Shown in pieces: positions 3 to 47,705 of a DNA stretch of 64,000 nt. The notes beneath the pieces were generated by a model that saw only the letters and a program-made list of their open reading frames with translations, did no database searches and was not told the DNA's origin. The DNA lies in NCBI GenBank assembly GCA_024644745.1, contig JAHEHF010000007.1, positions 1 to 64,000 on the forward strand, in the 5' to 3' direction. Each line of letters opens with the position of its first letter. Within the stretch, counting starts at the first letter, position 1. This DNA is from Flavobacteriaceae bacterium. GTDB taxonomy: Bacteria; Bacteroidota; Bacteroidia; Flavobacteriales; Flavobacteriaceae. Both the position numbers and the translations under genes were made by a program.

Positions 3-317
3 TTTGGCCCCCTGATCATTAAAAAATATGACTATGCCTCGCATTTCTTTCTTAGGCAGGCGAAACAGGTAAGGCGGGCAGTCGACATGGATCTGGTTTA
101 TCTTGGTGGTGCTGATTCCAAAGATGCCGTAGAAAAGATACTCAATGCCGGGTTTGACTTTATTGCCATGGCCCGTCCTTTAATTCATGATCCTGCCTTT
201 TTAAAAAAGCTGGAATCTGGATTGCTGCAAAGATCATTGTGCAATCATTGCAATGAATGCATTGTTCAAATGGAAAGAGGAGGCATCAGTTGTGTTCTAG
301 AATCTTCTGCCACCTGA
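3..317 (+). CDS. NADH:flavin oxidoreductase (old yellow enzyme family), C-terminal part
   Basis: This is the 3' end of a gene that begins before the window; the frame is open from the first complete codon and no start is visible. The segment GADSKDAVEKILNAGFDF followed by IAMARPLIHDP is the last beta-alpha unit of an FMN-binding TIM barrel of the old-yellow-enzyme type, where the conserved glycine and arginine contact the FMN phosphate. It ends with a cysteine cluster, CNHCNEC, which in related 2,4-dienoyl-CoA-reductase-like proteins lies at the barrel end and can ligate an iron-sulfur cluster. The protein stops soon after, so the second flavin domain of the large enzymes is absent. The substrate cannot be inferred. 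Confidence 0.8.
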   Translation, partial: FGPLIIKKYDYASHFFLRQAKQVRRAVDMDLVYLGGADSKDAVEKILNAGFDFIAMARPLIHDPAFLKKLESGLLQRSLCNHCNECIVQMERGGISCVLESSAT

Positions 318-2898: not shown

Positions 2899-3375
2899 AT
2901 GTTTGACAGAATTGAAAGAATTCCATCAAAAAAACTACTGGGAAAATCCATGAAAATGTCCTTGAATGAAAATCGTACCTACTCTTTATGGAGTAGCTTC
3001 ATGCCGCATAGAAATAAGATCAAAGACCGGGTTGACGATCTTCTTTATTCCATGCAGGTCTATGATGATTCACTCGATTTCAAAGACTTCAGCCCTGCCA
3101 CCACATTTACCAAATGGGCAGCTGTAGAGGTGAGCAGTTTGGATCGTATTCCTGATTCTCTGTCGCCCTATCATCTTCAAGGAGGATTGTACGCTGTTTT
3201 CATTCACAAAGGAACTCCGGCTTCCTTTCCCAAAACTGCACAATACATCTTCGGACAATGGCTTCCCTCCTCGGATTATGTGCTTGACAAAAGGGAGCAT
3301 TTCGAAGTTTTCACTTCAGACCACAAACCAGATGACCCTGAATCGGAAGAAGAGGTCTGGATACCCATCAAATAA
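2899..3375 (+). CDS. GyrI-like small-molecule-binding domain protein
   Basis: The 158-residue protein matches the AraC effector-binding / GyrI-like fold: an opening strand (RIERIPSKKLLGKSMKMSL), a middle helix with LWSSFMPHRNKI, a central WAAVEVS strand, and the closing LQGGLYAVFIHKGTP segment followed by IFGQWLPSSDY and a FEVF strand. Stand-alone versions bind small molecules or, in the case of SbmC/GyrI, gyrase; the ligand here is unknown. There is no DNA-binding domain. It is 14 bases ahead of the SDR gene at 3390 and probably in the same transcript. Confidence 0.8.
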   Translation: MFDRIERIPSKKLLGKSMKMSLNENRTYSLWSSFMPHRNKIKDRVDDLLYSMQVYDDSLDFKDFSPATTFTKWAAVEVSSLDRIPDSLSPYHLQGGLYAVFIHKGTPASFPKTAQYIFGQWLPSSDYVLDKREHFEVFTSDHKPDDPESEEEVWIPIK

Positions 3376-3389
3376 GCGATTTCATCAGC

Positions 3390-4367
3390 ATGACAGCAAA
3401 GAGGATTATATCAGTTACCGGAGGGACGGGTCACCTGGGGCAGGTCCTGATCCAAAACCTTCTTGATCGGGGAATGTATGTCAAAGCTTTGATCAGAAGT
3501 AAAGACAAGCCCTTTGAGCATCAGGGTTTATCCTGGATCGAAGGTGATCTGAACAATTCAAGTGCACTGGAAACCCTGATAGATCAAAGTGAAGCGGTTG
3601 TTCATTGCGCCAGTGCCATTTCTTTAGGAGAAATTGATCAAAATCTCGTTTTCGATGTAAATGTTACGGGTACTTCAAATCTCATTGACAGCTGTTTGAA
3701 CAAGGCCGTCCGGTTCGTGTTTGTCAGCTCCTCAACAGCTGTAAAAGAAGGATTTCAGGGGGAACTTATAGATGAAACCAGTGACTATCAAACCGATACC
3801 AGATTTTATTATGCCTGGACCAAAGCCATCGCCGAACAGCGGGTATTAGAGGCGGTATCACATAAAAATCTTGATGCATTTGTCATCAGGCCCACCTCAA
3901 TTGTCGGACCGCCTGATCAAAGACCCTCCAGGTTTGGCCGTACCATACTGGATCTCAACAGGGGGCGACTTCCTTTTATTACAGATGGAGGATATGATAT
4001 GGTTGATGTAAGAGACCTAGCCCGGACCATTGTCAATAGTCTTGACAGGGCTAAAAAAGGAAATGTCTATCTTGTAGGCGGTACCTATATCAGCCTTGAG
4101 GCCCTGGCCGAATTAGCCCTGGCTCCGAAAATACCTCGAAAAATTCCTGTCAACCTGCTTCTTACACTCTTGCCTTTGATCAGGATATACGACAAATTAT
4201 TTCCCTTGAAATGGCCCGTCAACAGGCAAAGTCTTCAAACCCTGAAATACGCTTCAGCAAATCTGGATTTTTCAAAAGCCACGCGTGAATTGGGGCACCA
4301 GTCAAGACCCATCAAAGACACCATCAAGGATTTGATATCATGGTTTCATCAAAATAAAATCAAATGA
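3390..4367 (+). CDS. NAD(P)-dependent epimerase/dehydratase, 3-beta-hydroxysteroid dehydrogenase-like
   Basis: The 325-residue extended SDR starts with the Rossmann motif TGGTGHLG (residues 9-16) and has the downstream catalytic Ser (FVFVSSSTAV) and the YxxxK pair (YYAWTKA). The C-terminal half binds the substrate. The gene overlaps the next one by 4 bases (ATGA). That neighbour closely resembles steroid 5-alpha-reductases, which makes a 3-beta-hydroxysteroid dehydrogenase-type role reasonable. On its own sequence it could equally be a dihydroflavonol-4-reductase-like or nucleotide-sugar enzyme. Substrate assignment is inference from context. Confidence 0.8.
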   Translation: MTAKRIISVTGGTGHLGQVLIQNLLDRGMYVKALIRSKDKPFEHQGLSWIEGDLNNSSALETLIDQSEAVVHCASAISLGEIDQNLVFDVNVTGTSNLIDSCLNKAVRFVFVSSSTAVKEGFQGELIDETSDYQTDTRFYYAWTKAIAEQRVLEAVSHKNLDAFVIRPTSIVGPPDQRPSRFGRTILDLNRGRLPFITDGGYDMVDVRDLARTIVNSLDRAKKGNVYLVGGTYISLEALAELALAPKIPRKIPVNLLLTLLPLIRIYDKLFPLKWPVNRQSLQTLKYASANLDFSKATRELGHQSRPIKDTIKDLISWFHQNKIK

Positions 4368-5113
4368 CACTAAATACGCTTAACCTTTTATGTATGATCT
4401 GGGCCGGCATCGGCATTGGATCGTTTATATTGCTTCAATTTGTTACGGCACCTTACGGGAGGCACTTTAAAAGTGGATGGGGGCCAGAATTGCCAAACCG
4501 GGCAGGGTGGATCATCATGGAAGCACCCTCTTTGCTGATCATTCTCTTTTTTTATCTGACTTCTGATCAAAGTGCTTATGCAGGTCTTTTATCAATCCTG
4601 TGGATCATACATTACACCTACAGGACCCTTGTGTATCCTTTCAGGATCAGAACCCGTGGAAAAAAAATGCCCTGGATCATCGTTTTATCTGCCATCTTTT
4701 TTAACTGTATCAATGCCGGTCTGAATGGTTATTTCCTGGCACATTTTGATCCCTATGATATATCGTCTTTTATGAATTGGAATTTTTATGCAGGCATTGC
4801 CCTTTTTATTTCAGGCTTGCTGATCAATCAAATAAGTGATCATATTCTCATTCATTTAAGGAAACCCGGAGAATCGGGATATAAAATTCCCAAAGGCTTT
4901 TTATTCAAATATGTTTCCTGCCCGAATCTCTTCGGGGAATTGATGCAGTGGACCGGATTTGCGATTATGGCCTGGAATTATCCGGCCCTTTCTTTTCTCA
5001 TCTGGACAGGCGCTAACCTCATTCCAAGGGCATTGGGTCACCACAAATGGTACAAAAAGCATTTTGACGACTATCCTGAAAATCGAAAATCACTGATCCC
5101 TGGAGTCTTCTAA
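4364..5113 (+). CDS. Steroid 5-alpha-reductase-like membrane protein (3-oxo-5-alpha-steroid 4-dehydrogenase family)
   Basis: The 249-residue polytopic membrane protein (about six hydrophobic segments) matches the SRD5A family at both ends. Near the N-terminus VTAPYGRHF and IIMEAPSLLI parallel the APYGR and QE-PSL segments of the mammalian enzymes. In the C-terminal domain LRKPGESGYKIPKG, FKYVSCPNLFGELMQW and HHKWYKKHFDDYP are near-diagnostic and form the NADPH-binding part. The family reduces the delta-4 double bond of 3-oxo-steroids or related polyprenoid-type lipids. A generic isoprenylcysteine-methyltransferase-like (DUF1295) protein is the alternative, but the two-ended match favours a 5-alpha-reductase. 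It overlaps the preceding SDR gene by 4 bases, so the two are probably translationally coupled. Confidence 0.82.
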   Translation: MTLNTLNLLCMIWAGIGIGSFILLQFVTAPYGRHFKSGWGPELPNRAGWIIMEAPSLLIILFFYLTSDQSAYAGLLSILWIIHYTYRTLVYPFRIRTRGKKMPWIIVLSAIFFNCINAGLNGYFLAHFDPYDISSFMNWNFYAGIALFISGLLINQISDHILIHLRKPGESGYKIPKGFLFKYVSCPNLFGELMQWTGFAIMAWNYPALSFLIWTGANLIPRALGHHKWYKKHFDDYPENRKSLIPGVF

Positions 5114-5387: not shown

Positions 5388-6755
5388 ATGGAATCTAATT
5401 TTGAAGACTTTAAGGGTCAAATCCGAGGAGAAATAATTCTTCCGGAAAACGAAAACTACAACGAGTCGAGAAAAGTGTATAACGCGATGATCGACAAAAA
5501 GCCCGGCATGATCGTCAAATGCGTAGACGTAGCGGACGTCATCGCCTGTGTGAATTACGGCAGGGAAAACAACATGCTGTTGGCGGTAAGAGGAGGCGGA
5601 CATAACGGCGGTGGTTTGGGCATCTGCGACGGCGGTCTGGTAATAGACCTCTCCGGAATCAAATTTGTACGGGTTGACACATCCGAGAACACCGTTCGCG
5701 TAGGTGGCGGAAACGTATGGGGGGAAGTGGATCACGGCACACATCCTTTCGGCCTGGCTGTTCCTGCCGGCATCATTTCCACAACAGGTGTGGGAGGACT
5801 GACCCTTGGAGGAGGCGTGGGTCACCTGTCAAGAAAATACGGCCTGACCATTGACAATCTTCTCGAAGCTGACATGGTACTTGCCAATGGTTCCTTTGTC
5901 ACGGTCAATGCCAGTCAGAATTCTGACCTGTTTTGGGCCATCAGAGGTGGTGGAGGAAACTTTGGCATCGTCACTTCCTTCAAATTCCAGGCGCACCCCG
6001 TGAAGAACGTTATCGGGGGGCCAACGCTATGGCCAATTGAAAAAACAGAAGAAATCATGGAGTGGTATCATGATTTCATCCATAATGCCGAAGAAGACCT
6101 TAATGGTTTCGTGGCCACGATGGTTATTCCGGGTCCTCCGTTCCCTGAATTCCTGCACATGAACAAATACTGCGGCATCGTATGGTGCTATACCGGAGAC
6201 CCGTCAAGATTTGACGAGCTTTTTCAGGTCGTCAGAGACAAGAACCCGGTCTTCGAACACGTTGGACCAATGCCTTATCCTGCCATTCAGTCTATGTTTG
6301 ACGGACTTTATCCAAAAGGAATGCAATGGTACTGGAGAGCGGATTACTTCACAGATATCGGGCCGGAAGCGAGAAAGCAGCACAAAAAATTCGGATCGGA
6401 GATACCAACACCATTCTCCACTATGCATATGTATCCGATAAGCGGTGCAGCAAGCAAGCCAGGTCCTGCCGACACTCCCTGGGCCTACAGGAGCGCCAAG
6501 TATGCCGGGGTCTTTGTTGGAGTGGACCACGATCCGGCAAATGCCGATAAGCTTACAAGGTGGGCCAAGGGCTATCAGGAAGCCCTGCATCCATACTCCT
6601 CGGGCGGTGCCTATATAAACTTCATGATGGACGAAGGACAGGAGCGTGTAAAAGCGAGTTACGGGCAAAATTATGACCGCCTTGTCGATATCAAAACCAA
6701 GTATGATCCCGGCAACTTATTCAGAGTGAACCAGAATATCAAACCGCGATCATAA
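5388..6755 (+). CDS. FAD-dependent oxidoreductase, berberine-bridge-enzyme family
   Basis: The 455-residue protein has a PCMH-type FAD-binding domain (residues 35-205) and a C-terminal BBE domain ending in YDPGNLFRVNQNI, the family's terminal motif. VRGGGHN places His72 at the site that carries 8-alpha-histidyl FAD. The second attachment site, a cysteine in the AGxCPTxGxGG segment of bicovalent members, is replaced here (AGIISTTGVGG), so a single covalent bond is expected. There is no signal peptide. Substrates in the family are oligosaccharides, alcohols or alkaloid-like compounds; none can be chosen here. The gene stands alone between two terminators and is richer in G+C than both neighbours, which hints at acquisition by transfer. 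Confidence 0.88.
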   Translation: MESNFEDFKGQIRGEIILPENENYNESRKVYNAMIDKKPGMIVKCVDVADVIACVNYGRENNMLLAVRGGGHNGGGLGICDGGLVIDLSGIKFVRVDTSENTVRVGGGNVWGEVDHGTHPFGLAVPAGIISTTGVGGLTLGGGVGHLSRKYGLTIDNLLEADMVLANGSFVTVNASQNSDLFWAIRGGGGNFGIVTSFKFQAHPVKNVIGGPTLWPIEKTEEIMEWYHDFIHNAEEDLNGFVATMVIPGPPFPEFLHMNKYCGIVWCYTGDPSRFDELFQVVRDKNPVFEHVGPMPYPAIQSMFDGLYPKGMQWYWRADYFTDIGPEARKQHKKFGSEIPTPFSTMHMYPISGAASKPGPADTPWAYRSAKYAGVFVGVDHDPANADKLTRWAKGYQEALHPYSSGGAYINFMMDEGQERVKASYGQNYDRLVDIKTKYDPGNLFRVNQNIKPRS

Positions 6756-46703: not shown

Positions 46704-47705
46704 TCAGTTTTTAAAATGTTTGGCTGTTCTTTGAACAGAAGTGGCAATATCTTCAAATTCAAAACCCAGTTCCTTTTTAATTTTTGATGCATCATATCGA
46801 TGATCCGATACAGATGATTTGGCGGAATATTTAGTCAACAGGGGTGTTGAGAGGGTAATTTTGCTTCTTACATACTCGAGCCGCCAGATAATTTCACCCA
46901 TCCACTTTGTGACCCTGATCCTTGGTTTTTCCTTGTCCAGGGCCTCAGCAATCATTTTCAACACAGCTTTAAAAGAAAGGTTTTGTGCTACCAGTATATA
47001 ACGCTCATTTGAAATATTTGATTCCATCAGCTGCGACATCACACATACAACGTCCTGGACACTTACAAAACCCGTGACGCCCTCAGTATAGAATTTTAGT
47101 CCCTTGTTTACTTTACTGAACATTTTGCCGGTTCCTTTATGCCAAAATCCCGATCCCAATATCACACCGGGATTCACAATAACAACCGGAATGCCCTCCT
47201 GGGAGGCTCGCCAAACCTCCATTTCAGCGCCATATTTTGTTATGGCATATCCACTTTTGAAGCTTTCGCTGTTCCAGTTGTCAGATTCATCAACGAGAAC
47301 TCCTGCCTGACCTTTTTCTATGGCGGCAACAGAACTTGCATAACAAAGTTTTTCGACCTTGTTGGTGATGCATAAATTAACAATGTTGGTGGTTCCTTCT
47401 ATATTTACCCGCCTCATGTGATGATAATCTGAGGCTACAAAAGAAACCAAAGCCGCACAGTGATAAACATGGGTGACACCATCAAAGGCCAATTCAAGTT
47501 CCGGAATATTGTTCAGATCAGCCTCCACCCATCGAATCTTGTTGAATAGGACCTCGGCATCCGGAGTATAATGCCCAAAAACTTTTTTAACAGCGTTGAG
47601 ATCACTGGTTTGGGTATGGGTAGCCCTGACCTTATCATGCTTCAATGTAAGATGGTATAGGAGGTGGGAGCCCACCAATCCGGTGCCGCCGGTGACTAAA
47701 ATCAT
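46704..47705 (-). CDS. NAD-dependent epimerase/dehydratase (extended SDR)
   Basis: The 333-residue protein starts MILVTGGTGLVGSHLLYHL (Rossmann motif TGGTGLVG). YASSVAAI provides the catalytic serine and GYAITKYGAE the YxxxK pair. The rest resembles dihydroflavonol-4-reductase-like or 3-beta-HSD-like bacterial proteins. It is convergent with the DUF4296 gene (9 bases between stops) and divergent from tyrS. Substrate unknown. Confidence 0.85.
   Translation of the reverse strand: MILVTGGTGLVGSHLLYHLTLKHDKVRATHTQTSDLNAVKKVFGHYTPDAEVLFNKIRWVEADLNNIPELELAFDGVTHVYHCAALVSFVASDYHHMRRVNIEGTTNIVNLCITNKVEKLCYASSVAAIEKGQAGVLVDESDNWNSESFKSGYAITKYGAEMEVWRASQEGIPVVIVNPGVILGSGFWHKGTGKMFSKVNKGLKFYTEGVTGFVSVQDVVCVMSQLMESNISNERYILVAQNLSFKAVLKMIAEALDKEKPRIRVTKWMGEIIWRLEYVRSKITLSTPLLTKYSAKSSVSDHRYDASKIKKELGFEFEDIATSVQRTAKHFKN

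Follow-up and report, generated by a model that had tools for sequence, protein, structure and literature searches.

A 64,000-nucleotide stretch of a flavobacterial genome (GenBank assembly GCA_024644745.1, contig JAHEHF010000007.1, positions 1 to 64,000 of the forward strand; hereafter the window) encodes a homologue of the steroid 5-alpha-reductases (SRD5A) directly behind an extended short-chain dehydrogenase/reductase (SDR). The window starts at base 1 of its contig in a 3.14 Mb genome that is counted here among the genomes of the genus Lutimonas. Judging from sequence and from analogy with known systems, we put the probability that this gene pair has a steroid A-ring function at roughly 55%, and our best reading is that it may be an environmental relative of the A-ring system of gut bacteria that would act on exogenous 3-oxo-delta-4 steroids. 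The preliminary description of this DNA had reported two open reading frames (ORFs) that share four bases; both are present, with ATGA at the junction, and because the SDR ORF overlaps that of the reductase the two genes are probably translationally coupled. The features concerned are as follows.

Positions 3390 to 4367, forward strand: extended SDR of 325 residues with TGGTGHLG, YxxxK and Arg36, recognised from motifs and from profile and structure searches.
Positions 4364 to 5113, forward strand: SRD5A-type integral-membrane 3-oxo-delta-4-steroid 5-alpha-reductase homologue of 249 residues, recognised from profile, predicted structure and residues.
Positions 4364 to 4367, forward strand: ATGA stop/start overlap, four nucleotides common to both ORFs, with the same overlap in 12 of 14 loci.

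The 249-residue protein is an SRD5A-type steroid 5-alpha-reductase homologue on three counts: its profile match, its predicted structure and its catalytic residues. It scores 170.1 bits against the Pfam family PF02544 (Steroid_dh; cut-off 22.6) across profile positions 1-150 of 150, and it matches the structures of the bacterial enzyme PbSRD5A (7c83; E 1.5e-60, residues 14-248) and of human SRD5A2, which reduces testosterone (7bw1; E 2.7e-43, residues 16-249). An AlphaFold2 model built from a 22-sequence alignment (mean predicted local distance difference test score 91.1) gave Foldseek template-modelling scores of 0.94/0.93 against 7c83 and 0.90/0.91 against 7bw1, and structural alignment yielded a VIA Z of 33.1 (1.8 A, 248 residues) and 30.5 (2.0 A, 241 residues), respectively. 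For comparison, delta-14 sterol reductase reached a Z of 13.1, and isoprenylcysteine methyltransferase (ICMT) chains reached 9.7-11.3 over 172-194 residues; as no ICMT family appears among the Pfam matches either, an ICMT identity, which had been raised as the counter-case to an SRD5A assignment, is ruled out. Residues E53, Y84, R87, N155, D159 and R166 correspond to E57, Y91, R94, N160, D164 and R171 of human SRD5A2, and N188, E192, R222, H226 and Y230 to N193, E197, R227, H231 and Y235. Ten of the 11 catalytic or NADPH-binding residues named in PMC7815742 are kept, namely E53, Y84 and all eight NADPH residues. The resemblance to mammalian SRD5A that had been claimed from the terminal signatures is thus borne out by profile, predicted fold and catalytic residues.

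The same comparisons bear on a reading in which the reductase saturates some other enone or enoyl lipid (for instance a terpenoid or carotenoid ketone, a thioester of a very-long-chain enoyl acid, a quinone precursor or a pigment) and the carbonyl next to the double bond is reduced by the SDR. Related enoyl reductases belong to this sequence family: ART-1, which is probably a very-long-chain enoyl-CoA reductase, matches the 249-residue protein at E 1.7e-16, and the fold of the SDR is close to those of cinnamoyl-CoA and kavalactone reductases. However, the family profile gives ART-1 91 bits versus 222 for SRD5A2 and 285 for PbSRD5A, and the glutamate that contacts the steroid C3 carbonyl (E57 in SRD5A2) is kept, at a site that the aligned ART-1 segment stops short of covering. 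We regard this as an unlikely alternative, albeit one to be taken seriously.

The 325-residue partner carries the TGGTGHLG motif at residue 10 and the Y141xxxK145 pair of an extended SDR. In these enzymes, a non-acidic residue at the end of the second strand points to NADP(H). Among 14 homologues, this position (residue 36) holds Arg in 11, Tyr in two and His in one and an acidic residue in none, which suggests an NADP(H) preference and, with it, a reductive role. Its former label of 3-beta-hydroxysteroid dehydrogenase-like (3-beta-HSD-like) holds loosely, as membership of the extended SDR superfamily, and is not specific: the protein scores 107 bits on PF01370 (Epimerase) versus 94 bits on PF01073, and a true HpnA from Lutimonas, used as a control, reaches 93 bits on PF01073. 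We therefore rejected the PF01073 score as proof of a 3-beta-HSD and use the label at superfamily level, even though in the homologous SDR of one other locus (L024, below) PF01073 ranks first, at 87 versus 79 bits for PF01370.

The partnership of the two genes is conserved. SRD5A occurs in 10 of 22 Lutimonas genomes (the window's included), and in all 10 the SDR is adjacent (E 1.0e-99 or stronger), while the remaining 12 yielded neither gene, their best SDR matches being no stronger than E 1.3e-36. Outside these 22 genomes we examined 23 further SRD5A loci, the neighbours of which were judged from ORF lists and tblastn. An extended SDR lies directly upstream in four of them (L024 and L026, both from uncultured Flavobacteriales, L025 from Lentimicrobiaceae, and L080), a gene of the Old Yellow Enzyme (OYE) family lies directly downstream in six (L029, L030, L043, L082, L085 and L090), and one (L028) has a classical SDR. 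Of the 14 SDR-SRD5A loci, 12 have the four-nucleotide overlap, the exceptions being a gap of one nucleotide in L033 and of 34 nucleotides in L025. In a tree, the SDRs of the pairs cluster apart from HpnA and from the paralogues of the genus, with support of 93/91, which falls below the tool's 95/80 mark, and with long branches for L080 and L025. Adjacency in each of the 10 Lutimonas genomes and at the four additional loci, together with the conserved overlap, upholds the functional partnership of dehydrogenase and reductase proposed in the preliminary description, and the pairing is beyond chance.

Four-nucleotide overlaps are common in bacterial operons, and 19 of the 23 loci outside the 22 Lutimonas genomes have no extended SDR directly upstream, as would be expected if the overlap were incidental operon packing of an SDR and a reductase with unrelated jobs. 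We consider such packing improbable, given the conservation of the overlap, the retention of the pairing in Lentimicrobiaceae and also in L080, where the extended SDR is a very different one, and the finding of neither gene in 12 Lutimonas genomes. In L080 (6724-8498), the extended SDR is very divergent (26% identical) and overlaps SRD5A by the same four bases; the coupling may for this reason have arisen twice or be very old.

As to the origin of the substrate, the nearest named families of the SDR on NCBIfam are HpnA (TIGR03466; 166.7 bits, cut-off 367.65) and SdmB (NF052578; 161.5 bits, cut-off 600). These matches, and an MMPL/HAE3-type RND protein that follows the pair in L024 and L026 (with a sterol-sensing-domain match in L024), would be in keeping with a role of the pair in endogenous hopanoid or sterol synthesis. 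Both scores nevertheless lie far under their cut-offs, and the true HpnA of Lutimonas genome G007, which lies near a squalene cyclase, reaches 478.7 bits on TIGR03466. A search with the single model PF13249, which we take to cover both squalene and oxidosqualene cyclases, detected no cyclase either in the 10 Lutimonas genomes that carry the pair (completeness 72-100%) or in those that contain L024, L025 and L026; the test comprises these 13 pair genomes, and G438, the genome of L080, is outside the set. The only Lutimonas genome with a cyclase is G007, which lacks the pair but carries a genuine HpnA, and no cyclase was found in the other 21. We therefore rejected an HpnA or SdmB identity for the SDR, and endogenous hopanoid or sterol synthesis, which had been called equally possible, is largely refuted and now seems very improbable. 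No match to KshA was found in the 22 Lutimonas genomes, a result with a weak control, as of 14 control genomes only Corynebacterium glutamicum matched, below cut-off; aerobic steroid ring degradation through KshA was set aside on this result. With neither cyclase nor KshA found, the cell probably does not make the substrate itself, and breakdown of its ring system by the usual aerobic route is likewise improbable.

Two observations belong beside these searches. The hopanoid-type locus of G007 (L091, G007:C6, 2898-9547) contains the cyclase and the true HpnA, both by profile, along with squalene-synthase-like and radical-SAM-like genes recognised by eye. A second extended SDR in the window (46704-47705), positionally unrelated to the pair and with relatives in other genomes of the genus, is HpnA-like at a sub-threshold 156 bits.

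A third enzyme, an ene-reductase, recurs in the genomes with the pair, and its gene begins the window.

Positions 3 to 317, forward strand: C-terminal part of an OYE-family ene-reductase, cut by the contig start.

The remainder of this gene forms the end of another contig (G000:C133:38737-39747), the assembly break falling at the first base of the window. An OYE gene lies upstream of the pair in seven of the 10 Lutimonas pair genomes, and the OYEs beside SRD5A in the six further loci named above are of the Lutimonas subfamily. We counted OYEs at E<=1e-60 in two Bacteroidota samples of 395 genomes each, one of the phylum and one of the order; the OYE and SRD5A samples are taken as the same 395 genomes because the listed handles agree, the phylum and order samples share at least the window's own genome (G000), and the statistics are not phylogenetically corrected. 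In the phylum sample there were nine genomes with OYE, eight with SRD5A and three with both (hypergeometric 4e-4, or 0.007 without the window's own genome); the corresponding numbers for the order sample were three, seven and three (3e-6, or 2e-4). In a tree whose rows were picked by similarity to the query, and for which the tool warned of long branches, the OYEs of Lutimonas grouped with those of the gut type (97/93), apart from other members of the phylum. Classical SDRs lie downstream of OYE in L029, L082 and L090. Within the genus, G001 encodes an OYE of the gut type away from its SRD5A, with 57-60% identity to four gut-type proteins used for comparison. Elsewhere, G066 has an OYE that is 48% identical to that of L082 and overlaps an SDR-like ORF, on a different contig from SRD5A.

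The rarity of SRD5A and its company also speak to an endogenous polyprenoid substrate. In eukaryotic dolichol synthesis, DHRSX and SRD5A3 convert polyprenol to polyprenal, saturate the alpha bond and reduce the aldehyde. The window pair could act likewise, the SDR oxidising a polyprenol and later reducing the aldehyde, and an SRD5A3-type reductase saturating the alpha bond in between. An SDR and an SRD5A-family reductase in one unit formally fit this scheme, and human SRD5A3 acts on polyprenols (PMC7591894). SRD5A is, however, rare, with eight carriers among the 395 genomes sampled from the phylum and seven among the 395 sampled from the order, unlike what an essential carrier-lipid function would imply; the best structural matches are the steroid-reducing SRD5A2 and PbSRD5A, from a comparison set without SRD5A3; and co-occurrence with the OYE subfamily suits steroids better. 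A polyprenoid substrate thus appears distinctly unlikely. In a plasmid collection, matches were confined to a gut Phocaeicola record and a Nocardia record, and the matched stretch is unannotated in both.

Several observations weigh against a steroid A-ring function. PF01073 gives no separation of the SDR from HpnA, and the predicted structure of the SDR is closest to Gox2253 and to cinnamoyl-CoA reductases. Completeness is 61-97% among the 12 Lutimonas genomes that lack the pair, and these may form one sub-lineage, so that the co-occurrence of both genes within the genus may reflect a single event. Since the tree places the SRD5As of L024 and L026 within those of Lutimonas, these two loci may be close kin of Lutimonas and not independent, and 12 of the 23 further loci have neither an SDR nor an OYE beside SRD5A. 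In the window the OYE does not adjoin the pair, from which it is separated by about 3 kb and at least four genes. The contigs of G001, G012 and G020 end before the place of the OYE, and no Lutimonas-type OYE was found elsewhere in these three genomes; G007 has this OYE without SRD5A. Six of the nine OYE genomes of the phylum sample are without SRD5A, and five of eight (phylum) and four of seven (order) SRD5A genomes are without such an OYE. Finally, Q56 of the human Q-E-Y motif is replaced by M52 in the window protein, as it is in 33 of 33 prokaryotic rows aligned besides PbSRD5A, gut-type rows included.

The last point matters in that human SRD5A2 needs Q56, the substitutions Q56A/L having abolished activity (PMC7815742). 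As Met is found in all prokaryotic rows other than PbSRD5A, we read it as a feature of this branch of SRD5A and not as a defect of the window gene. It is also doubtful that Gln at this site is a defining feature of SRD5A, because the rows from gut-type loci, which may correspond to the published active Bacteroidetes enzymes, likewise have Met.

If the pair does act on the steroid A ring, its substrates would be steroids taken up from other organisms, such as sterols of algae, animals or faeces and the 3-oxo-delta-4 compounds derived from them. In the inner membrane, E53 and Y84 of the SRD5A homologue would bind the C3 carbonyl, and hydride would pass from NADPH to C5 on the alpha face to give a 3-oxo-5-alpha (A/B-trans) steroid. 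The co-translated SDR would interconvert the C3 ketone and hydroxyl, most likely turning the 3-oxo-5-alpha product into a 3-hydroxy-5-alpha-stanol, and, running in reverse, might also supply the 3-oxo substrate. The OYE may act on the same delta-4 or on 5-beta compounds, as the 5-beta-reductase of gut Bacteroidetes does, or on other ring double bonds. Reduction of the delta-4 bond by the SRD5A homologue is suggested by its family and residues, the SDR and OYE steps by neighbourhood and analogy; that the substrate is a steroid, that its source is exogenous, the direction and stereochemistry of the SDR step and the role of the OYE are what we infer from these. More tentatively still, Lutimonas and related environmental bacteria might turn environmental sterols into 5-alpha-stanols, with SDR, SRD5A and OYE oxidising, isomerising and saturating ring A without ring degradation, although we think this extended scheme less likely to be true than false by a considerable way.

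The genes that flank the pair are more variable.

Positions 2899 to 3375, forward strand: GyrI-like small-molecule-binding domain protein, 14 nucleotides upstream of the SDR.
Positions 5388 to 6755, forward strand: berberine-bridge-type FAD-linked oxidoreductase, downstream of the pair after a gap of 274 nucleotides.

A GyrI-like homologue lies upstream in four of the 10 Lutimonas pair loci (the window, L033, L034 and L038), and in L034 and L038 other ORFs separate it from the SDR. The berberine-bridge-type gene is found downstream of the pair in nine of the 10 Lutimonas loci (the exception is L035, and it is partial in L032 and L033), with an ORF of about 140 residues in between in L034, L037 and L038; it is probably a unit separate from the pair. 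Scans for consensus promoters and terminators yielded about as much as shuffled sequence. Further upstream (1151-2158) is an LpxD-like acyltransferase gene, which is probably a second, lineage-restricted paralogue since its product is 36% identical to the copy in G009, which sits beside an LpxC-like gene (judged by eye). A clean empty site of the pair was not seen, the upstream LpxD-like gene being either not found or divergent in the pair-less genomes. In L024 (6799-9045) and L026 (6800-9046), the RND protein comes directly after the pair, and a START-domain gene lies nearby on the opposite strand; both might be partners in the transport of steroids or lipids. A contig filed as Heimdallarchaeota (L027) encodes an SRD5A 44% identical to that of the window and is possibly a misbinned bacterial contig.

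Among characterised enzymes, PbSRD5A, which reduces progesterone (PMC7815742), is the closest: it is alike in fold (Z 33.1), in the catalytic Glu and Tyr and in the NADPH residues, at 41% identity over 239 aligned columns, and differs in having Gln in the Q-E-Y motif where the window protein has Met. PMC12697870, PMC9645264 and PMC10672800 describe a gut 5-beta/5-alpha-reductase cluster that likewise comprises an SRD5A-type 5-alpha-reductase, an OYE of the same subfamily and an SDR, and from gene content the Bacteroidales loci of our analysis would correspond to these published gut enzymes. In the gut cluster as there described the SDR is classical and lies downstream, whereas in Lutimonas an extended SDR lies directly upstream with a four-nucleotide overlap; gut-type Bacteroidales loci have the OYE beside SRD5A, and in the Lutimonas window it is 3 kb away. 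At the protein level, the SRD5A homologue of the window is 33-38% identical to the Bacteroidales-type proteins, and it keeps H226 where the seven rows of the Bacteroidales-type clade have Ile or Leu.

Two further systems resemble the pair in the reactions that we propose. In gut bacteria, a 3-beta-HSDH/delta-5-4 isomerase and a 5-beta-reductase couple a 3-hydroxysteroid dehydrogenase to a delta-4 ene-reductase, and the two are fused in several species; according to PMC12238238, that ene-reductase is of the OYE family and gives 5-beta products, in contrast to the SRD5A-type membrane enzyme of Lutimonas. SpiR (PMC13079761), likewise an SDR, converts cholesterol to cholestenone by oxidation and also reduces 3-keto steroids, the reactions that we propose for the window SDR; it has about 520 residues and an extra C-terminal domain, unlike the 325-residue SDR. 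HpnA and SdmB, although the nearest named families of the SDR, remain far below cut-off in a genome in which no cyclase was found. The SRD5A enzyme class and the gut cluster are therefore known, and what is new is the extended type of the SDR, the gene order and the marine habitat, Lutimonas being a marine genus. A survey of the open-licence literature found no paper combining three of the five themes of 5alpha-reductase, flavobacteria, stanols, marine bacteria and sterol transformation.

What has been known of bacterial SRD5A so far comes from a solved structure and from bile-acid clusters of the gut. A version of different build that is conserved in a marine genus would carry the steroid A-ring system into the environment. 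Environmental 5-alpha-stanols have been attributed to microbial sterol transformation (PMC5217961). Should the pair indeed act on a sterol from the environment, its two genes would be candidates for the genetic basis of 5-alpha-stanol formation, a geochemical biomarker process, for which Lutimonas saemankumensis DP2N0-7 is a named strain that offers a concrete test case.

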